This document shows positions 51,557 to 62,466 of a stretch of 64,000 nt of DNA, piece by piece. Numbering within the stretch: the stretch's first letter is position 1; every line of letters starts with the position of its first letter. The translations under genes and the position numbers were made by a program. The notes beneath the pieces are model-generated. The model saw nothing but the letters and a program-made list of their open reading frames with translations, was not told the origin of the DNA and did no database searches. The DNA comes from a bacterium (GTDB taxonomy: Bacteria; Vulcanimicrobiota; Vulcanimicrobiia; Vulcanimicrobiales; Vulcanimicrobiaceae), in contig JAJYCL010000002.1 in assembly GCA_021778415.1 (NCBI GenBank), positions 1 to 64,000 of the forward strand, given 5' to 3'.

Positions 51557-52041
51557 GCGACCGTTTTCGCGTAGCACTTATCGTTCTTTCCGATCGCGCT
51601 GCTCGCGGCGATCGTGCCGATGCGTGCCTGCCGGTCATGCGCGAGGCCCTCGGTGAAATTTATGATGTCGTGCGCGCCATCGTCATGGAGGACGATCCCT
51701 CCGCATTGCAAGCCGAACTAATCGATCTGTGCGATACGCATGGCGCCGATCTCATCGTTACGAGCGGTGGTACCGGCTTGGCCCCTCGCGATCGCACGCC
51801 GCAAGCCACAGCAGCGATCCTCGATTACGAAGTCCCCGGCATTTCCGAGGCAATTCGTGCGGAGTCGATGCGCATCGTCCGTAGTGCTATGCTCTCCCGC
51901 GGAATCGCGGGCGTTCGTCATCGCACATTGATCATTAATCTTCCGGGAAGCCCGAAAGCCGTCGCGGAATCGATTGAAATTATCGCTTCGATATTGCCGC
52001 ATGCGTTGGAATTACTCGCGGGAGTTGTCCTCGACGGATGA
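51553..52041 (+). CDS. mogA: MogA/MoaB-type molybdopterin adenylyltransferase
   Basis: 162 residues starting MSDRFRVALIVLSDRAARGDRAD. It adenylates molybdopterin before metal insertion by MoeA. LIVTSGGTGLAPRDRTPQAT carries the MPT-binding GGTG, and VPGISEAIRAESMRIVRSAMLSRGIAGVRHRTLIINLPGSPKA is typical. ATGA overlap with moaC and with the next folC gene. Confidence 0.93.
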   Translation: MSDRFRVALIVLSDRAARGDRADACLPVMREALGEIYDVVRAIVMEDDPSALQAELIDLCDTHGADLIVTSGGTGLAPRDRTPQATAAILDYEVPGISEAIRAESMRIVRSAMLSRGIAGVRHRTLIINLPGSPKAVAESIEIIASILPHALELLAGVVLDG

Positions 52042-53312
52042 CAAAAATCCAGACGTACGCGGACGCCGAACGCTATCTGCTTTCGACGATCAATGAACAT
52101 GTCTCGCGTTCTCAACCCTATCGTCTTGAACGGATGGTTGGATTCTTAGCCGAACTTGGCGATCCGCAACGACGCTATCCGACGGTACATATTGGTGGGA
52201 CCAGCGGAAAGGGTTCGACGTGTACGCTGCTGGCCAACGTGCTACGAGCGGCCGGACATCGGACCGGATTACACGTCAAACCGCATCTGCAATCGATGAC
52301 CGAACGCGCGTGTATTGACGGCGTGGATATCTCCGAAGATGATTTTGCCACGACGCTCGTATCGATGATGCCGGCAATCGAGCGTGCTGCGGCTCGCGGC
52401 GAGCGGCCTTCGTATTATGAAACCTTACTCGCCTTGGCATTTCGCTATTTCGCCGATCAGAAGGTTGATATCGCCGTTATCGAGGTGGGACTCGGCGGTC
52501 GCCTAGACGGAACGAACGTGTTGCAGCCACTCGTGACGGCTATCACGTCGATCGGCTACGATCATACCGACGTGTTGGGCGATACCTTGGAACTCATCGC
52601 AGCGGAGAAAGCCGGTATTGCCAAACCTGGCGTTCCGATGGTGGCCAATATCGCCGATGAAGCCGCCCGTCGCGTCGTCGAGCAAACGTGTGCGACGATC
52701 GGTGCACCATGGATCGATGTGCGAAAGGAAGCCTCGTCGCCGTACATCCAAGCGATCCATCTCGACGGAGCCTTTCAGCGCGACAATGCAAAGACTGCCG
52801 TAGCCGTCCTATCGGCTCTCCCCGACGCATTCAGGCCGAGTGGCCACGCCATTGCACAAGGATTTGCCATGACGCAAATCGCAGGTCGAATGGAACGCTT
52901 CGCCACGCGTCCGGTAACGATTCTCGATATCGCGCACAATGAGCAGAAGGCTCGGGCATTGGCGTCGGCAGTTCGCGAGATCGGAGCTCCAACAATACGC
53001 GTGGTTCTCTCGATTGCCGAAACCAAGGATGCAGCCGAAATCGTTGCCGCACTGTGTGAGGTGGCGCATGAATTTTTTTGCACCGCATTTCACCCACAGC
53101 CGGGGCGAGCGCCACTATCGCCGGAGCTTTTGGCAAGCTTGGTACGCGCCCGCGGTGGGACTGCCGAAATCATCGAAGATCCGTTGCAAGCGCTTATCAT
53201 GGCGCGTCAGCGCAGCGGTCTCGACGATCTTGTTCTTGTGACCGGATCGACGCTGCTCGTAGCGACGTTGCGGAACACCGTTCGAGAAAGCGAGCATGCT
53301 CGATCATGCTAG
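52038..53312 (+). CDS. folC: Dihydrofolate synthase / folylpolyglutamate synthase
   Basis: 424 residues of the Mur ligase type. GGTSGKGSTCTLLANVLRAAG is the ATP loop; HLQSMTERACIDGVDISEDDFATTL and VEVGLGGRLDGTNVLQPLVTAITSIGYDHTDVLGDT are characteristic. It adds glutamate to dihydropteroate and polyglutamates. A tetrahydrofolate operon follows: folP overlaps by 7 bases, then folB and folK. Confidence 0.95.
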   Translation: MTKIQTYADAERYLLSTINEHVSRSQPYRLERMVGFLAELGDPQRRYPTVHIGGTSGKGSTCTLLANVLRAAGHRTGLHVKPHLQSMTERACIDGVDISEDDFATTLVSMMPAIERAAARGERPSYYETLLALAFRYFADQKVDIAVIEVGLGGRLDGTNVLQPLVTAITSIGYDHTDVLGDTLELIAAEKAGIAKPGVPMVANIADEAARRVVEQTCATIGAPWIDVRKEASSPYIQAIHLDGAFQRDNAKTAVAVLSALPDAFRPSGHAIAQGFAMTQIAGRMERFATRPVTILDIAHNEQKARALASAVREIGAPTIRVVLSIAETKDAAEIVAALCEVAHEFFCTAFHPQPGRAPLSPELLASLVRARGGTAEIIEDPLQALIMARQRSGLDDLVLVTGSTLLVATLRNTVRESEHARSC

Positions 53313-54124
53313 CGTGGGGAACAAAAACATTCGTGATGGGCATCGTGAACGTCACGCCCGATTCGTTTTCGGGGGATGGCCGTATCGCCATCGATTCCGC
53401 CGTCGAGCATGCCGTTGCGCAACATGCTCTCGGCGCGGATATTTTAGATATCGGCGGAGAATCGACGCGTCCGGGCGCGCAAGCGATTAGCGCCGACGTG
53501 GAATGCGAGCGCATTCTTCCCGTGATTCGTGCGGTTCGCGAGAGACTGCCCCACGCCATACTATCGGTCGATACCTATAAGCCGGAAGTAGCGCGTGAAG
53601 CCTGTAAGGCCGGTGCATCGATGGTGAATTCGGTCTACGGGGTAACCGACGAGTTGCTTGACATCGTGCAAGCAATGCATGTTGGTATCGTCATTATGCA
53701 TCATCGTTTTCGTTCGCCGGACGGAGCAAACGCCGTTGACGATGTGATCGAATTTCTCCGCGAAGCGTCCGATCGGGCCCTTCGCTGCGGGATACCACGG
53801 AAAAATATTATCTTGGATCCGGGCATCGGGTTTGGCAAAACGCCCGATCAAAATATTGCTGTGCTCGCACAGTTGGCGCAGATCGTCGATCTAAGGTTTC
53901 CGACGCTGCTCGGCACATCGCGAAAATCGACGCTGGGCCTGTTAACCGGGCGGCGCGAGCCGAGCGACCGCGTTGCGGCGACGACGGCGACAACGGCGTT
54001 TGCAGTGATGGCACGAATGGATATCGTTCGCGTTCACGATGTTGCCGCGGCGCGTGATGCCGTCGCCGTTGCAGACGCAATCGTTCGGGGATGGAGGCCG
54101 CAATCGTGGACCGTATCGCAGTAA
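53306..54124 (+). CDS. folP: Dihydropteroate synthase
   Basis: 272 residues starting MLAWGTKTFVMGIVNVTPDSFSGDGR. It condenses p-aminobenzoate with the pterin pyrophosphate and is the target of sulfonamides. GADILDIGGESTRPGA, LSVDTYKPEVAREA, DPGIGFGKTPDQN and LGTSRKSTLG are the pterin and PABA sites. The ATG lies inside the last codons of folC. The stop overlaps folB. Confidence 0.96.
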   Translation: MLAWGTKTFVMGIVNVTPDSFSGDGRIAIDSAVEHAVAQHALGADILDIGGESTRPGAQAISADVECERILPVIRAVRERLPHAILSVDTYKPEVAREACKAGASMVNSVYGVTDELLDIVQAMHVGIVIMHHRFRSPDGANAVDDVIEFLREASDRALRCGIPRKNIILDPGIGFGKTPDQNIAVLAQLAQIVDLRFPTLLGTSRKSTLGLLTGRREPSDRVAATTATTAFAVMARMDIVRVHDVAAARDAVAVADAIVRGWRPQSWTVSQ

Positions 54125-54468
54125 ACGGTATCCGCGCAATGGGCGCGCATGGAGCCGATCCTGGAGAACGTGAAACGCTACAACCGTTTTGCGTCGATGT
54201 CGAACTGGCATGCGATCTGCACGAGGCGGCATCAACGGACGCCCTGGAAGCGACGATCGATTACGCGATGCTTCACGCAAAAATCGTTGAGATCATCGAG
54301 CGGCGATCGTATATCTTACTCGAGCGGCTGGCCGACGAGATTCTCAGGTGCATTTTCCTTGACCCACGAGTCGCTTCGGCCTCGGTATGCGTCGGCAAAC
54401 CCGAAAAACTCGACGGAGCGACACCGAGCATCACACTTTCGCGGATAAATCCGCGCCATCATCGGTAA
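54106..54468 (+). CDS. folB: Dihydroneopterin aldolase
   Basis: 120 residues with GTG start; GGAGG lies 8 bases upstream, better than the ATG at 54091. It cleaves or epimerises dihydroneopterin. DRIAVNGIRAMGAHGADPGERETLQPFCVDVELACDL is the substrate pocket, AMLHAKIVEIIERRSYILLERLADEILRCIF the helix pair, and KPEKLDGA the conserved last region. The TAA overlaps the folK ATG by one base. Confidence 0.92.
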   Translation: MDRIAVNGIRAMGAHGADPGERETLQPFCVDVELACDLHEAASTDALEATIDYAMLHAKIVEIIERRSYILLERLADEILRCIFLDPRVASASVCVGKPEKLDGATPSITLSRINPRHHR

Positions 54469-54938
54469 TGCCTGATTCGCATGTTGCGGTTATCGGGCTT
54501 GGATCGAATCTCAATGATCCGGTGCAGCAAGTTCGTCGTGCAATATCGGCCCTAGCAAGCGTTGGGAGCGTCGAGGCAGTATCGCGACTCTACCGGAGCC
54601 GACCGTGGGGGAATCTCACGCAGCCGGATTTCATCAACGCCGTCGTTCGGATGCGAACTCGCCTTGAACCGCATGCTCTTTTGGGGGCTCTTAAAGCCTT
54701 GGAAGCGACGCTTGGGCGCGTACCAAGCGAACGCTGGGGGCCGCGATCGATCGATCTCGATATCCTGACCTACGACGCACTCGAATTCGTTGATGCCGAA
54801 CTCTGCCTTCCGCATCCGCATCTATTCAAGCGAGCGTTCGCACTCGTGCCGCTCGCCGAGATCGATGCGTCCTATGCCCTCGCTGTTGCCGCCCTTGATC
54901 CGGCTGAGCGCGACGGATTGACGCTCATCGAGACCTAA
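54468..54938 (+). CDS. folK: 2-Amino-4-hydroxy-6-hydroxymethyldihydropteridine pyrophosphokinase
   Basis: 156 residues starting MPDSHVAVIGLGSNLNDP. It pyrophosphorylates the pterin before FolP. SRLYRSRPWGNLTQPDFINAVV, LKALEATLGRVPSERWGPRSIDLDILTYDA and LPHPHLFKRAFALVPLAEI are the usual motifs. The stop overlaps the HD-GYP stop on the opposite strand. Confidence 0.95.
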   Translation: MPDSHVAVIGLGSNLNDPVQQVRRAISALASVGSVEAVSRLYRSRPWGNLTQPDFINAVVRMRTRLEPHALLGALKALEATLGRVPSERWGPRSIDLDILTYDALEFVDAELCLPHPHLFKRAFALVPLAEIDASYALAVAALDPAERDGLTLIET

Positions 54939-56710
54939 ACTTGCGGTTTAATACTATCGTAGACGCGCTGGGTGATGAACACATCGAGAAGAAGCGGATC
55001 GATTTTTCCGCGTTGACTGAACTCTTTTTCTAAAATATCCAAGGCGCGTTCCACGGAAAGTCCCTTTTTATATGGGCGATCTCCGGCGGTGAGCGCATCG
55101 AAGACATCGGCAATGGTCATCATACGAACCTGCGGGGCGATTTGATCTCCCGCAAGCTTGCGCGGGTATCCCGTGCCGTCGAGATGTTCGTGATGTCCGT
55201 AGGCGAGTTCGGCGACATTTTTCCACGGAGTGCGACCCCACGGGATTTCGCGCAGAAAATAGAACGATTGAGTGACGTGCTCTTGCATGCGCTCTCGCTC
55301 GTCATCCGAGAGCGAACCTCGTGGAATCGAGAGGAAATCAAGTTCACGTGGCGTGATCAGTGGTTGCTCGCCGTCGTCGCCGAGGTACATGCGTTGCATC
55401 GCGTCATGCATGGCCGAGTCGGCGGCAGCATCGACAATAACCGGTTCGTTTGCCGCCACGATTTTTGCCAGTAATGCTTGGAGCTCGGCACGGGTCCGTG
55501 CGTCCGGAGCTTGTTCGATCGCCAGGAGAAAACGGAGACGGATCGTGTCAAGGCGACCATCGGGAAGTTTTTTTGCCTTGGCAAAAATGTATTCGGGAAC
55601 GGCGACTTTGCCGAAATCGTGCAGCAACGACGCATAACGAAGTTCGCGAAGTTCGTCGTCGCTAAAGTGCAGGTTGGCAAGCGGGCCGACGCCGATTTCG
55701 CTGATTGCCTTGGCTTGAGCGACGGTGAGCGCGGCGACGCGTTCGGAATGGCCCTGCGTTGCTCGGTCGCGGCCTTCAATCGCTTTGACCGACGCGTGAA
55801 CGAAGTTCTCGAAAAGCTCTTGGATGGATTCGACGAGTTGCGCATTGACGATCGAAACGGCCGCTTGCGCTGCGAGCGCCGCGAGAACGCCTTCGTCATG
55901 GTCATCGAAATTTTGCACGTTCGCTTCAACCATCGTCGCATCGCCAAGAACGATATGAAAACTACGTTTGCGATTGATGAGCTGAATGGCACCGACGATG
56001 CGCCCGTCCACCGATCGCATCGGCACGCAAAGCATGGATTTCGTGCGATAGCCCGTCGCGTTATCGTAGCTGCGGTTAAATGAATAGGGCGACGCTTCGG
56101 AGATCGAATAGACATCGTCGATACGCAGCGTTTCGCCCGTTGAGGCGACATAGCCGGCAATCGACTGGCCGGTGAGCGGAAGGAGCGAGCCGAGAAAGAC
56201 GCCTTCGTCGGTAGGGCCGGTTTGCGTCACAGTAAAGCGAAGCATTTTCGTGCCGTCGGACTCTTCGAGAACATACAGGCTTCCGGCGTCCGCATCGGTG
56301 AGTTCGCGCGCTTTGCGTACAATGAGTTGTTCCAAGCGCGTGATATCACGTTCGGATGAGAGCGCTTGTGCGATCCCTAGGAGTTCCGTGCCTTCGTGCG
56401 ATGCGCGTTCGAGGGCGCGATTGGTCGCCGCAGCAACGGCGCCGCGAATGGCGGCCGAGATTTCGGCACGGTTGACCGGGGGGCGAAGGATCGAAACGAC
56501 GTTCGGATCGGAACTGATCCAGGCTTCATTTGGATCGTGCAGTGGCAGGACGACGATTGCCGGCGAGGCGGTGTGCCTCAGCGAGGATATTCCCCCGCGT
56601 TCGCGGAGCCGGGCGAAATCGACCTCGAAGGCATCGAGCCCAGCTTTGCCGACCATTTCCGGGATTTCCCCGAGATCGATGCCGCGGGGATAGAGAAACA
56701 GCGCTACCAC
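54935..56710 (-). CDS. GAF and HD-GYP domain c-di-GMP phosphodiesterase
   Basis: 591 residues; GTG start chosen (VVALFLYPRGID), because an upstream extension lies in the AccB-like gene on the other strand. Residues 1-110 look like a degenerate receiver domain; about 130-310 is a GAF domain (TDADAGSLYVLEE, YRTKSMLCVPM, GAIQLINRK). The HD-GYP domain holds LLHDFGKVAVPE and GHHEHLDGTGYP with complete metal ligands. A helical insertion with a long acidic loop separates them. It should hydrolyse c-di-GMP to GMP; the PilZ protein at 47.5 kb could read the signal. Confidence 0.92.
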   Translation of the reverse strand: MVALFLYPRGIDLGEIPEMVGKAGLDAFEVDFARLRERGGISSLRHTASPAIVVLPLHDPNEAWISSDPNVVSILRPPVNRAEISAAIRGAVAAATNRALERASHEGTELLGIAQALSSERDITRLEQLIVRKARELTDADAGSLYVLEESDGTKMLRFTVTQTGPTDEGVFLGSLLPLTGQSIAGYVASTGETLRIDDVYSISEASPYSFNRSYDNATGYRTKSMLCVPMRSVDGRIVGAIQLINRKRSFHIVLGDATMVEANVQNFDDHDEGVLAALAAQAAVSIVNAQLVESIQELFENFVHASVKAIEGRDRATQGHSERVAALTVAQAKAISEIGVGPLANLHFSDDELRELRYASLLHDFGKVAVPEYIFAKAKKLPDGRLDTIRLRFLLAIEQAPDARTRAELQALLAKIVAANEPVIVDAAADSAMHDAMQRMYLGDDGEQPLITPRELDFLSIPRGSLSDDERERMQEHVTQSFYFLREIPWGRTPWKNVAELAYGHHEHLDGTGYPRKLAGDQIAPQVRMMTIADVFDALTAGDRPYKKGLSVERALDILEKEFSQRGKIDPLLLDVFITQRVYDSIKPQV

Positions 56711-56770
56711 TTTTCCATGGTTAGCGGCGGCTGGGGAGTAACCCCGCATGGGGGGAGCGAAAATGTGGGA

Positions 56771-57184
56771 ATGTCCGAAACGCTGGTTGACCTCAGTCCG
56801 ACCGTCGCGCGGGTCGGCACCCTCATCGAGCTCTTCAATGCAAGCGGTTTGAGCCGCCTTGTCATCGAGCGTGCCGATGAGCGTGTCGAGATCGCTCGTG
56901 GCCCGAGATTCGAGCGCGTACCCCTTGCCGAGCCGTTGCCCGTCGAGGAGGCGCACCGGATCGATCGTCTGAGCGCGGATCTTGTCGGGATTGTTCGTCT
57001 CAGCCGTCCGACCCCGGTGCAGGGAGAGACGTTGGCCGGTGACCGCGAATTGGCGTACGTTGAGGCTCTGGGTATTCGCAACCCGGTTCGTAGCCGCGGG
57101 GCCGGTCGCATCGTTTCGATTCCCATAAGCGACGGCCAAGTGGTCGATTATGGCCAGACACTGTTTGAGATTGATCGAGGATAG
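56771..57184 (+). CDS. AccB-like (BCCP) protein lacking the biotinylated lysine
   Basis: 137 residues. The N-terminal VARVGTLIELFNASGLSRLVIERADERVEI matches the AccB N-terminus. The C-terminal barrel reads VGIVRLSRPTPVQGETLAGDRELAYVEALGIRNPVRSRGAGRIVSIPISDGQVVDYGQTLFEI; here the biotin motif EAMKL is EALGI, with glycine 101 where the lysine should be. It therefore cannot be biotinylated. The accC gene follows directly. Plant BADC proteins show the same change and hold back acetyl-CoA carboxylase; similar regulation is an inference. A true AccB must be elsewhere. Confidence 0.85.
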   Translation: MSETLVDLSPTVARVGTLIELFNASGLSRLVIERADERVEIARGPRFERVPLAEPLPVEEAHRIDRLSADLVGIVRLSRPTPVQGETLAGDRELAYVEALGIRNPVRSRGAGRIVSIPISDGQVVDYGQTLFEIDRG

Positions 57185-57187
57185 AGT

Positions 57188-58543
57188 ATTTTCCGCAAAG
57201 TTTTAATTGCGAATCGCGGCGAGATCGCGGTGCGCATCAATCGTGCCTGTCAAGAACTTGGCGTCTGTACCGTCGCGGTGTTTTCCGAAGCCGACCGTGA
57301 TTCGTTGCACGTGCGTCAGGCGGATGAGACCTTGTGCGTCGGACCGGGACCGGTATCGCGATCCTATCTCAACATCCCGAATATTATTTCGGCGGCGCTT
57401 GTTACCGGATGTGACGCGATCCACCCCGGCTATGGGTTTCTTGCCGAAAACGCTCGCTTTGCGCAGATCTGCGCCGATCACGGGCTCACCTTTATCGGGC
57501 CCCAACCGTCGGTGATTTCGGCAATGGGCGATAAGGCGACGGCAAAGCGCGTCATGCATGAAGCGGGCGTTGCAACGACGCCGGGAACGGGAATCCTCGA
57601 TTCCGTCGATGAGGCATTGGCTGCTGCAGAGAACGTTGGCTATCCGGTGCTCATCAAGGCGACGGCCGGCGGCGGCGGCAAGGGAATGCGCGAGGTGCGT
57701 TCGGCCGATGAGATGGAACGTGCATTTGCGTCGGCGCGTTCGGAAGCGGAAGCGAGTTTTAAAGACGGACGCGTCTACATGGAGAAATTGATTCTCAACC
57801 CGCGTCACATCGAAGTACAAGTTCTCGGCGATTCCTTCGGCTCCGTCGTTCATTTGGGCGAGCGCGATTGTTCGGTTCAAAAGCCATCGCATCAGAAGCT
57901 GATCGAAGAAGCGCCTGCGCCGCGTCTCTCACCCGCCGCTCGCGACGCTTTGCATGAGATGGCCGTGAAGGCATGTCGTCACGTCGGTTATACCAATGCC
58001 GGCACATTGGAATTTTTAGTCAGCGGCGATCATGTGTATTTCATGGAAATGAATACGCGCATTCAAGTCGAGCATCCGGTCACGGAGATGATCTTCGGTA
58101 TCGATCTCGTCAAAGAGCAAATTCGCGTCGCGTCGGGTGAGCCGCTCGGATTTGCTCAGAGTGATATTCGCGTTCGCGGCCACGCGATCGAATGTCGCAT
58201 AAATGCCGAAGATGCGGAGCATAATTTTGCCCCGCAGGCGGGGACGTTGGAGACGGTGGTCTTTCCGGGCGGCCTCGGTATTCGTGTCGATACGCACGTG
58301 TACGGCGGCGCAACGATTCCGCCATATTACGATTCGATGTTGGCCAAAATTATCGCCTTCGGTGATACGCGCGAAGCTGCAATTTCGCGAATGGAACGCG
58401 CTCTGCGCGAAACAACGATCACCGGCGTGAATACAACCATCCAGAAGTGTCTTGAAATTCTGGCGACGCGGGAATTCCGCGAAGGCCGCTACGATATCGG
58501 ATTTCTTCCCGCCTTGCTGCTTAGCACTGCGGCCGCACACTAA
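57188..58543 (+). CDS. accC: Biotin carboxylase subunit of acetyl-CoA carboxylase, likely ATT start
   Basis: 451 residues. FRKVLIANRGEIAVRINRACQELG is the conserved N-terminus, directly after the stop of the AccB-like gene. The only start upstream of it is ATT at 57188, with GAGGA 6 bases before. A GTG at 57230 would cut away KVLIANRGEIA. ATP-grasp motifs: GDKATAKRVMHEAGVATTPG, IKATAGGGGKGMREV, FMEMNTRIQVEHPVTEMI and VRGHAIECRINAED. It carboxylates biotin on AccB for fatty acid synthesis. nusB follows after 11 bases. Confidence 0.92.
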   Translation: MFRKVLIANRGEIAVRINRACQELGVCTVAVFSEADRDSLHVRQADETLCVGPGPVSRSYLNIPNIISAALVTGCDAIHPGYGFLAENARFAQICADHGLTFIGPQPSVISAMGDKATAKRVMHEAGVATTPGTGILDSVDEALAAAENVGYPVLIKATAGGGGKGMREVRSADEMERAFASARSEAEASFKDGRVYMEKLILNPRHIEVQVLGDSFGSVVHLGERDCSVQKPSHQKLIEEAPAPRLSPAARDALHEMAVKACRHVGYTNAGTLEFLVSGDHVYFMEMNTRIQVEHPVTEMIFGIDLVKEQIRVASGEPLGFAQSDIRVRGHAIECRINAEDAEHNFAPQAGTLETVVFPGGLGIRVDTHVYGGATIPPYYDSMLAKIIAFGDTREAAISRMERALRETTITGVNTTIQKCLEILATREFREGRYDIGFLPALLLSTAAAH

Positions 58544-58554
58544 GGAGTAGGTCC

Positions 58555-58962
58555 ATGGCAGCACGCCGCTTAGGGCGCGAACAAGCCTTGCAAGCGCTTT
58601 ACGGCATAGCCGTCGGTAAACGCGAACCAAGCGAGGCCGTCGATGAAGTCATCAACGAAAAAGCCGATACGGAGCATCGACTTTTTGTTGCTGATTTAGT
58701 GTATGGAACGTTGCGAAACGCCGAAGATTCCGATACGCTACTTGCGCCGCATTTGCAAGAATGGACAATTGATCGCTTAGCCGCGATCGATCGCATTATT
58801 TTGCAGATGGCTGCATTTGAAATCGTTCATGTGCCGACGATGCCGCAGGCCGTGGTCATTAACGAAGCCGTTGAATTGGCGAAACGCTTTTCGACCGATG
58901 ATTCGGCCGGATTTATCAATGGTGTCTTAGGCTCGGTGGTGCGTGGACGGATATCGTCCTAA
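58555..58962 (+). CDS. nusB: Transcription antitermination factor NusB
   Basis: 135 residues. RRLGREQALQALYGIAV is the N-terminal helix, LAAIDRIILQMAAFEIVHVPTMPQAVVINEAVELAKRFSTDDSAGFINGVLG the conserved core. NusB binds boxA RNA with NusE for rRNA antitermination. GGAGTAGG precedes the ATG. Its last 20 bases overlap the start of the penicillin-binding protein gene. Confidence 0.95.
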   Translation: MAARRLGREQALQALYGIAVGKREPSEAVDEVINEKADTEHRLFVADLVYGTLRNAEDSDTLLAPHLQEWTIDRLAAIDRIILQMAAFEIVHVPTMPQAVVINEAVELAKRFSTDDSAGFINGVLGSVVRGRISS

Positions 58963-61126
58963 GCGGCGCAAGAAGCCGACCGCGTCGAAGCGGCCGACCG
59001 GGCGCTTTCCATGGCGACGCATCGGGTACATACTGCTTTTTTCCGTCTTGCTGGTCGTCGGATTTTTTGCCGGCCTGATCATTTCGTTCTCGCGAAATTT
59101 ACCCGATATCAGCCGCATGGCCGATTATCAGCCGGCGAGTGCCACGCGGATTTATGCGCGCGATGGATCTCTGCTCGCGAGCGTGTATACCAAAAATCGC
59201 GTCTGGGTGCCGATTTCACGCATTCCTAAAGTCATGCAAGAAGCCGTCGTTGCAAACGAAGATCATAACTTCTACACGCACCACGGAGTCGATCCGGTCG
59301 GGATCCTTCGCGCGGCATTTGCCGATATGACACACCAGCAATTTCAAGGTGCTTCGACAATCACGCAGCAACTCGCGCGTAACTTGTTTCTTAACGACGA
59401 AATTTCGATTAAACGCAAAATCGAAGAGGCGTTACTTGCCATCGAGATCGAGCGATACTATACCAAAGACGAAATTCTCGAACGCTATCTCAATTTGATT
59501 TATCTCGGAGCAGGGGCCTACGGTGTGGATGCCGCTGCGCACACGTATTTCGGCACGAGTGTCGATAAACTCGATCTTGCGCAAGCGGCCACCTTGGCGG
59601 GCATTATTGCCGCCCCGTCGGATTACTCGCCATTCGTGAATCCTCGGTTGGCGACCGACCGCGAACATCACGTCCTCGATCGTATGGTCGATAGCGGATA
59701 TATTACCGTCGCTCAAGCGACTGCGGCAAAACATGCACCGATTAAGTTGACGAAATATCGTACACCTGGTGTGATGGGCTATCGTTCGCCGTGGTTTACC
59801 ACGTATGCCATCTCGCGTCTTGAAACGCTCTTTGGCGCGCAGGCCGTTCGCGAAGGGGGATTGCAAGTTTATACGACGATGGATCCGGTGCTTGAACGTG
59901 AGGCGCAAAACGCCGTCGATTGGGGCGTCGCAGCGGCAAAAAGCGAGGGGATCGGCGCGCACCAGGCTGCACTTGTTGCCATTCGTCCGTCGACGGGTGA
60001 AATTGTTGCGATGATCGGCGGTACGACGTTTTCACTCAACAATCAGTTCAATCGTGCGTGGCAAGCGTTGCGCCAACCCGGCTCATCATTTAAGGCCTAT
60101 GTCTATTCCGCCGCCATCGATTCGGGATACGAACCGTCGACGCTCGTGGATGATGCACCGATCAGCTATCCGATGGGCGACGGAACCAAATGGTCGCCGA
60201 TGGATGACGATAATCGTTACATGGGGATGATGACGTTGCGTCGCGCGCTTGCGCTTTCACGCAATGTCGTGGCCGTTCGCGTAGCCGATCGCGTCGGACT
60301 CGATAAAATCATTGAATACGCACATCGCATGGGCGTACGTGCGCAATTAGACGCCAATCTTTCCCTTGCACTCGGCTCGTCGGTGGTCAGCGTATTGGAT
60401 CAGGCCAGCGGCTACTCGACGCTTGCCAACGGCGGTATCCATAATACGCCCACTGCCGTGCGCCTGGTAAAGGATTCTCTCGGGAATATCGTCCTCGATC
60501 ATTCTATTCCGCGCTCGCGTGAGGCGATCAGTGCGGGAACCGCGTATTTGGTGACATCGATGTTAGAAGACGTTATCGCGTACGGGACGGGAACCAATGC
60601 GAATATCGGGCGACCGGCCGCGGGCAAGACGGGCACGACGACGGATTTCCGCGATGCGTGGTTTGTCGGCTATACGCCGGATTTGGTGACGGCCGTTTGG
60701 CTTGGCAACGACGATTATTCGCGTATGAGCGAATCCTACGGCGGAAATATTCCGGCCCGCATTTGGGCCCGCTTTATGCGCGCTGCGTTGGCAAAGACGC
60801 CGCCGCATCCGTTCATCATGCCATCGGGGCAAGTCGAGAGAACGTCACGATGCGGCACTCCCGGAACGCATCTGTATCTCAAAGCCGATACGCCGATTTC
60901 GCCGTGCGCGGTCGATACGGCAAAACCGATCGTCAATGCGGTGATTCCATCGCCGTCGCCAATGTCGGCTTCAAGCGCAACGCCGATGCCGACGGATACC
61001 CCGGCCACCTCGCCGCCCCTTACGCCCGAACCGTCAGCCGCGCCGACGGCTGCGCCGACGCCGATTCCGCCGATCTCCACCTCGGCGCCGCAGGTTGCTG
61101 CGACGGCGCAACCGAGTCCGCCGTAA
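58943..61126 (+). CDS. Class A penicillin-binding protein (PBP1A-like)
   Basis: 727 residues. A cytosolic basic tail (RRKKPTASKRPTGR) and one membrane helix (IGYILLFSVLLVVGFFAGLIISF) precede the glycosyltransferase domain (VVANEDHNFYTHHG, QGASTITQQLARNLFL, ERYLNLIYLGAGAYG) and the transpeptidase with SSFK at about residue 381, LSRNVVAV and KTGT at about 562. The C-terminal 60 residues are rich in Pro, Ser and Thr. It polymerises and cross-links peptidoglycan. The TAA overlaps the xseA ATG. Confidence 0.96.
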   Translation: MDGYRPKRRKKPTASKRPTGRFPWRRIGYILLFSVLLVVGFFAGLIISFSRNLPDISRMADYQPASATRIYARDGSLLASVYTKNRVWVPISRIPKVMQEAVVANEDHNFYTHHGVDPVGILRAAFADMTHQQFQGASTITQQLARNLFLNDEISIKRKIEEALLAIEIERYYTKDEILERYLNLIYLGAGAYGVDAAAHTYFGTSVDKLDLAQAATLAGIIAAPSDYSPFVNPRLATDREHHVLDRMVDSGYITVAQATAAKHAPIKLTKYRTPGVMGYRSPWFTTYAISRLETLFGAQAVREGGLQVYTTMDPVLEREAQNAVDWGVAAAKSEGIGAHQAALVAIRPSTGEIVAMIGGTTFSLNNQFNRAWQALRQPGSSFKAYVYSAAIDSGYEPSTLVDDAPISYPMGDGTKWSPMDDDNRYMGMMTLRRALALSRNVVAVRVADRVGLDKIIEYAHRMGVRAQLDANLSLALGSSVVSVLDQASGYSTLANGGIHNTPTAVRLVKDSLGNIVLDHSIPRSREAISAGTAYLVTSMLEDVIAYGTGTNANIGRPAAGKTGTTTDFRDAWFVGYTPDLVTAVWLGNDDYSRMSESYGGNIPARIWARFMRAALAKTPPHPFIMPSGQVERTSRCGTPGTHLYLKADTPISPCAVDTAKPIVNAVIPSPSPMSASSATPMPTDTPATSPPLTPEPSAAPTAAPTPIPPISTSAPQVAATAQPSPP

Positions 61127-62466
61127 TGGCGACCGAGCCCAAAGAAATCATCGGTGTCACCGAATTCGCGAAGCGCCTTCGTGTTGTGTTTGATCGACGC
61201 CTTAAAGCACTTCATCATATCGGGATCACGGGAGAACTCGTTTCGTATTCGGCGTCCGAACAGAACAATGTCAATTTCACGCTCAAACAAGACGACAATA
61301 CGCTCAATGGTTTTGCCTGGTCCGGTGATGCAAAGGCGTTTCCAAAGGTCGCCGTCGGGATGATCGTTACCGCGATAGGTAATGTGACAACCTATCCGAA
61401 GCGAAGCGCATATCAACTCGTGTGCACGGAACTTCGCCCGAGTGATGAGCGAGGACGGTTAGCTCTCCAGTATGCGACGCTCAAGGAGTCGTATGCGGCA
61501 GATGGCTTATTCGACGTCACGCGTAAAGTTGCATTGCCGAAATACCCGCTTCGGGTGATTGTCGTTTCGTCGAGCCGTGGCAAGGGAACGGACGATTTTG
61601 TCGATCAAATGCGCAAAGAAGCTCCATTCGTCAAGGTCTCGCTCCAAGAGACGCAAGTACAAGGCTCGGGTGCGGAACTCTCTATTGCGCGGGCAATTGC
61701 GGCCGCCGATGCCCTCGCGCCCGATATTATTGTTGTCTTGCGCGGCGGTGGGGCCTACGAAGAACTCTTTACGTTCAACCTCGACCCTGTGGTGCGCGCG
61801 ATTGCTAATGCGGTAACGCCCATCGTTACATCGATTGGACATAATGCGGACCGACATCTCGCCGATGACGTCGCCGATGCGTATTTCGCTACGCCGACTG
61901 CGGCCATTAAATCGATTACCGCCTCCTGGACCGAGGGCAAGCATCGCGTGCTAGAAGCCGGGGAACGCAGTGAAAACATTATTCGAACGACTCTGCGTTT
62001 GCTCGCGCAACGCTTGGATGGAATGAACAGTAAGTTGCCTGACGCGTCGCGTCTAGCTCTCGGTGTTCTCAGGGAACGCCTTCGTAAGCGCTCGGTTCGC
62101 CTTGATCAGGGCAGCCCATTGACACGTCTGGGTCAGCGCCGCGCCGCGTATGCGCAGGCTATCGGCCGACTCGGAGCCTGGCCTGCACACGCATTGGTGC
62201 GCTCTAAGAGCAGTTTGCAAGATGCGGCGCAACGGTTGCAAATCGCTCTTGATGCTGTGGTATCGCAACGCGTCGTTCAGTATGATCGCTCTTGTGCGCT
62301 CCTGAAAGCGTTGGACCCAGCGGCACCATTGGCACGAGGGTATGCCATTGTTGAAGCCGGCGGCCATCCGCTCTTGCGCGCCGATGCGGTGCAATCCGGC
62401 GATGCTGTGCGCGCGCGTCTCGCCCACGGGTCGCTTGCCCTTCGCGTCGAAGAGGTGCTCCCATGA
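61126..62466 (+). CDS. xseA: Exodeoxyribonuclease VII large subunit
   Basis: 446 residues. The OB-fold N-terminus IIGVTEFAKRLRVVFDRRLKALHHIGITGELVSYSASEQNNVNFTLK, then the nuclease core VIVVSSSRGKGTDDF, LRGGGAYEELFTFNL and VTSIGHNADRHLADDVADAYFATPTAA, and the long helical region. In the usual sequence GIGHETD the glutamate is asparagine here. The last part LDPAAPLARGYAIV is typical. It degrades single-stranded DNA with XseB. ATGA overlap with xseB. Confidence 0.95.
   Translation: MATEPKEIIGVTEFAKRLRVVFDRRLKALHHIGITGELVSYSASEQNNVNFTLKQDDNTLNGFAWSGDAKAFPKVAVGMIVTAIGNVTTYPKRSAYQLVCTELRPSDERGRLALQYATLKESYAADGLFDVTRKVALPKYPLRVIVVSSSRGKGTDDFVDQMRKEAPFVKVSLQETQVQGSGAELSIARAIAAADALAPDIIVVLRGGGAYEELFTFNLDPVVRAIANAVTPIVTSIGHNADRHLADDVADAYFATPTAAIKSITASWTEGKHRVLEAGERSENIIRTTLRLLAQRLDGMNSKLPDASRLALGVLRERLRKRSVRLDQGSPLTRLGQRRAAYAQAIGRLGAWPAHALVRSKSSLQDAAQRLQIALDAVVSQRVVQYDRSCALLKALDPAAPLARGYAIVEAGGHPLLRADAVQSGDAVRARLAHGSLALRVEEVLP

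Follow-up and report, generated by a model that had tools for sequence, protein, structure and literature searches.

An AccB paralogue without a biotin site is encoded directly before accC and may be a bacterial counterpart of plant BADC

The window (the whole stretch of DNA that was analysed, 64,000 nucleotides) contains, directly upstream of the biotin carboxylase gene accC and of nusB, a paralogue of accB whose product has no biotin site (accB*; Table 1). The codon at the biotin-lysine position is GGT (57071-57073), which places a glycine (G101) there, so that the biotin-accepting lysine of the EAMK(L/M) motif is absent. The complete 137-residue protein has a lysine count of zero and therefore cannot carry biotin; attachment to another lysine of the window's protein is ruled out because there is none. 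The sequence-only reading had described an AccB paralogue with glycine at the biotin lysine, standing in the place of accB, and both the translation and the adjacency to accC agree with that description. The TAG stop codon of accB* ends at 57184, and an SD-like GAGG lies just before it.

The wider gene order, folC-folP-folB-folK-(HD-GYP)-accB*-accC-nusB-pbp-xseA (about 52038-62466), is well conserved in the family. An HD-GYP/GAF ORF, as listed at 54935-57139 on the minus strand, runs antisense through most of accB*; the additional N-terminal stretch of this ORF probably goes untranslated. Many relatives have no HD-GYP/GAF gene, and in them folK directly precedes accB*.

Table 1. Coordinates of accB*, its structural elements and the genes downstream.
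Feature	Coordinates	Strand	Details and basis
accB*, AccB paralogue without biotin site	56771..57184	+	137 aa (P0001), ATG start
N-terminal helix and beta-hairpin, residues 9-42 (AccB assembly region)	56795..56896	+	AlphaFold and profile-profile match
Biotinyl-type barrel, residues 64-135	56960..57175	+	pLDDT 94-98; Foldseek
Site of the missing 5-residue thumb of canonical AccB, between T81 and P82	57011..57016	+	alignments
EALGI in place of EAMKL	57062..57076	+	translation and alignments
accB*/accC junction: 3-nt spacer and ATT start of accC (57188-57190)	57185..57190	+	sequence
accC, biotin carboxylase	57188..58543	+	only stand-alone BC among the genome's biotin-domain loci seen
nusB	58555..58962	+	accB*-accC-nusB order kept across the phylum

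In an AlphaFold model of the single accB* chain, run with a sequence alignment (mean pLDDT 88.9), the N-terminus forms a helix (residues 9-25) and two strands (29-34 and 37-42), while the barrel contains a hairpin (93-99/102-107) that has G101 at its turn. Profile-profile comparison of accB* with canonical AccB N-termini gave 97% probability (P 1e-10), whereas a wrong-domain control gave 0.4%. Foldseek matched the model to E. coli BCCP (1bdo and 4hr7), Arabidopsis BCCP1 (9a87) and other biotinyl domains, and the accB* family profile matched 4hr7 over its full length (E 3e-26). The Pfam profile PF00364 scored 24.9 bits against a cut-off of 22.1, the match covering the C-terminal two thirds of the profile only. 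The earlier claim that accB* keeps the AccB N-terminus and the barrel is thus borne out by the AlphaFold model, by Foldseek and by the profile match. The BCCP profile TIGR00531 also detected accB* (E = 4.5e-9), with a score of 36.9 bits that does not reach the equivalog cut-off of 115.2; the true AccB of the same genome, at 110.3 bits, also falls slightly below it. The alignments show that the thumb is gone from accB* and retained in this true AccB. By fold and descent accB* is a member of the AccB family, one that fails the defining features of the carrier. It is very improbable that accB* has departed from acetyl-CoA carboxylase (ACC) to serve a different complex or to bind RNA or a regulator, since its linkage to accC is tight across two phyla, the AccB N-terminus is retained and its best matches are AccB proteins.

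Of 60 relatives, 57 have a homologue of accB*, among them all 45 of good quality. At the biotin-lysine position glycine is present in each of the 38 aligned sequences from the window's order (34/34 in the family and 4/4 in the sister family), and in place of the old biotin motif these sequences have the nearly invariant motif YVEALGIRNPVRS. The 38 sequences come each from its own assembly, against the raw-read error at the glycine codon that had been raised as a possibility. The dN/dS of accB* between close relatives is 0.07-0.22, which indicates purifying selection on the gene. Sequencing error, mis-assembly or a pseudogene is a negligible alternative, given the recurrence of the same residue and motif in separate assemblies and these dN/dS values, by which both a read error and a decaying gene are ruled out.

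Beyond the order the residue is more varied. In the next family of the class (f3) the accC-linked copy has K in 8 sequences and R in 6, and elsewhere in the window's phylum the residue is G, R, N or S, with K in one case. The f3 relatives (e.g. L056-L069) encode accC-linked proteins with a C-terminal tail that often ends in EPPRL or EPPRI. The question raised earlier, whether the lysine is lost across the clade, is answered in the affirmative for the order, with glycine in 38/38, and the loss extends well beyond it. Judged from these alignments, lysine loss is wider and older than first noted, and several residues besides glycine have taken its place.

The genome (2.59 Mb, 95.6% complete) also encodes a true AccB, MMDEKQTLAELLEMM...VCILEAMKLFNEIQSE, with the motif EAMKLFNE and the gene order hisS-accB-gmhA; elsewhere in the window's phylum, too, the lysine-bearing AccB is located by hisS. 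The search for a second, biotinylatable accB, which had been proposed as a check, was positive: the gene is split over two contigs, running across the end of C7 (L011) and the start of C13 (L012) in genome G000, which overlap by 127 bases, 126 of them identical. A genome without a second AccB is ruled out, the split copy on two overlapping contigs being easily missed, and automatic annotation may call this gene missing or partial. Elsewhere in the genome accD and accA are adjacent (contig C23), and a biotin-ligase-family domain lies on contig C47. Two other biotin carboxylase domains were seen (C12 and C61), each fused to its own biotin domain.

The association with accC was followed through the relatives. 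An accB-type copy lies directly upstream of accC in 74 sequences from Eremiobacterota (probably the window's phylum) and 42 from Armatimonadota, the stop codon of the accC-linked copy and the start of accC usually being a few bases apart. Within the window's phylum accC comes next wherever the flanks read far enough, usually followed by nusB and a penicillin-binding protein gene. A scan of named genomes with a four-sequence alignment yielded, among the matches listed, accC-linked AccBs without the lysine in Armatimonadota. Two or more AccB matches were obtained in 78 of the 81 genomes of the Armatimonadota sample. The residue at the site in the accC-linked copy is there G, R, D, S, N, H or K, and a few further copies with accC unconfirmed have T, G, R or N. 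The two-AccB arrangement occurs as well in a third small group (L298-L327; G130, G275-G292), in which the accC-linked residue is G, D or K.

Across these two-copy groups (the window's phylum, Armatimonadota and the third small group), 96 of 124 accC-linked copies have replaced the lysine (by G, R, N, D, S or H) and the second AccB keeps it, whereas outside them the accC-linked copy has lysine in 90/90 and another residue in 0/90 (Fisher P 1e-35 for lysine loss in two-copy groups versus others, relatedness ignored). Because the remaining 28 of the 124, mostly from Armatimonadota and f3, retain the lysine, part of the range might still biotinylate the accC-linked copy. The AccBs of Cyanobacteriota (12 inspected by eye and 30 by script) all have the lysine, and as a rule a genome has a single stand-alone copy. 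Among 59 sampled Cyanobacteriota genomes none showed a second stand-alone AccB of the accB* type, and for this reason inheritance of plant BADC via the plastid ancestor by this route is disfavoured. Of the 55 matched genomes of Acidobacteriota, 53 had one AccB match, and the lysine was present in 30/30 examined.

In a tree of 128 sequences (SH-aLRT support), the accC-linked copies of Eremiobacterota and Armatimonadota fall, except for one long-branch row, into one group (support 86). A separate cluster (89) contains the carriers of all three groups, whether hisS-linked or unlinked. In a reduced set that leaves out the longest branches, support for the accC-linked group is 92. The third group's accC-linked copies lie outside the Eremiobacterota-Armatimonadota clade, and one divergent member (G057) is placed among the cyanobacteria, probably through long-branch attraction. 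The separation of accC-linked from carrier copies suggests, with moderate branch support, one old duplication before Eremiobacterota and Armatimonadota parted. The lysine position would have changed afterwards, with at least 8 switches between K and non-K inside the accC-linked clade. These changes, together with the variety of residues at the site (G, R, N, D, S, H, K) and the alternation of K and R in f3, are what might be seen if the accC-linked copy were a redundant carrier that drifted, having lost its lysine repeatedly once the hisS-linked AccB did the carrying, and being retained as a minor scaffold or for the sake of accC translation. We consider such drift quite improbable. In the window's order the old motif has been replaced by YVEALGIRNPVRS, and the near-invariance of this new motif argues there for a positive role.

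The junction with accC has a further feature. At the accC start position (MF[RK]KVLIANRGE) the window and 12 other genomes of the family (L019-L026, L030-L032 and L037) have ATT or ATC, preceded by an SD-like sequence. For several of the 13, the window included, the stretch from the in-frame stop to the accC core KVLIANRGE contains no ATG, GTG, TTG or CTG. In these 13 genomes the apparent start codon of accC is ATT or ATC. In E. coli AUU starts are found in infC and pcnB only (PMC9410913). Such a start would fit translational coupling and limitation of accC.

Comparison with known systems places accB* close to, and apart from, the bacterial carriers. It shares with AccB/BCCP (E. coli BCCP, 4hr7 and 1bdo) the fold, the order of helix-hairpin, linker and barrel, and the place before accC, but differs in having no biotin lysine and no thumb and in scoring well under the equivalog threshold of TIGR00531. 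The parallel with plant BADC drawn from the sequence was apt, as both belong to the same protein family, have no biotin site and coexist with a biotinylated BCCP. Plant BADC, like accB*, is a BCCP-like protein without the biotinylation motif that is found alongside biotinylated BCCP, and in plants it is reported to act as a glue between BC and BCCP and to touch the thumb side of BCCP (PMC11926652). The two are likened by features, and accB* differs in being bacterial and in being encoded together with accC; by this analogy accB* probably works like BADC. In the BC1 protein of Chloroflexus aurantiacus, a fused BC-BCCP, the BCCP beta-hairpins interlock four-fold and hold the BC tetramer together (PMC11077971). 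The same hairpin element is kept in accB*, although BC1 differs in being fused and in having a barrel with the biotin lysine. The epsilon subunits of actinobacterial acyl-CoA carboxylases are generally described as short, unrelated proteins that have no biotinyl-type barrel. What they have in common with accB* is the idea of a non-catalytic 'glue' (as cited in PMC11926652).

On balance we lean towards accB* being a non-catalytic, never-biotinylated subunit of the BC half of acetyl-CoA carboxylase that assembles or stabilises AccC-AccB, a bacterial analogue of plant BADC. A biotin-free structural subunit is the simplest reading because the protein keeps its N-terminus, has lost its own thumb and is translated right before accC; its binding to AccC and AccB, and its part in assembly, we infer. 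In such a mechanism accB* would be made together with AccC from adjacent genes separated by a 3-nt gap, and its helix and hairpin would dock onto AccC among the equivalent hairpins of the hisS-linked, biotinylated AccB. The barrel, without biotin site and thumb, would then occupy a structural place, and accB* would help to assemble or stabilise the AccC-AccB subcomplex and set the number of biotin arms, as reported for BADC. The chemistry does not demand such a role, since E. coli assembles BC and BCCP without a biotin-free AccB subunit.

The main rival to a structural subunit is an inhibitory role, in which accB* would compete with biotinylated AccB for AccC and so act as a negative regulator, lowering ACC activity in response to changes in its level or state. 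An AccB that has its docking region intact but carries no biotin could be a decoy, and plant BADCs were first described as inhibitors (Salie 2016, as cited in PMC11926652). We regard such regulation as unlikely, however, because translation of accB* with AccC from adjacent genes favours a constant over a regulated ratio, and its presence in 45/45 good-quality relatives is more in keeping with a fixed subunit than with an optional regulator.

The structural-subunit reading can be extended to a standing two-carrier ACC in two phyla and the third group, in which one AccB would be a permanently biotin-free structural subunit, derived from one duplication at or before the common ancestor and independent of plant BADC, with an AUU or AUC start of accC in part of the window's family. 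To this larger picture, taken as a whole, we would give slightly less than an even chance. Searches of the literature, which took in few of the subscription journals, turned up no bacterial BADC-like or non-biotinylated AccB, and a 2025 paper describes BADC as unique to the plant enzyme (PMC11926652). With a co-encoded, biotin-free AccB conserved in two or three phyla, this type of subunit would have arisen in bacteria as well. The committed step of fatty acid synthesis is that of acetyl-CoA carboxylase, an enzyme whose multi-subunit form is unstable and little understood. Together accB*, accC and accB make up a compact system in which to probe what a biotin-free BCCP does, and for annotation they are a warning that the neighbour of accC is not always the carrier.
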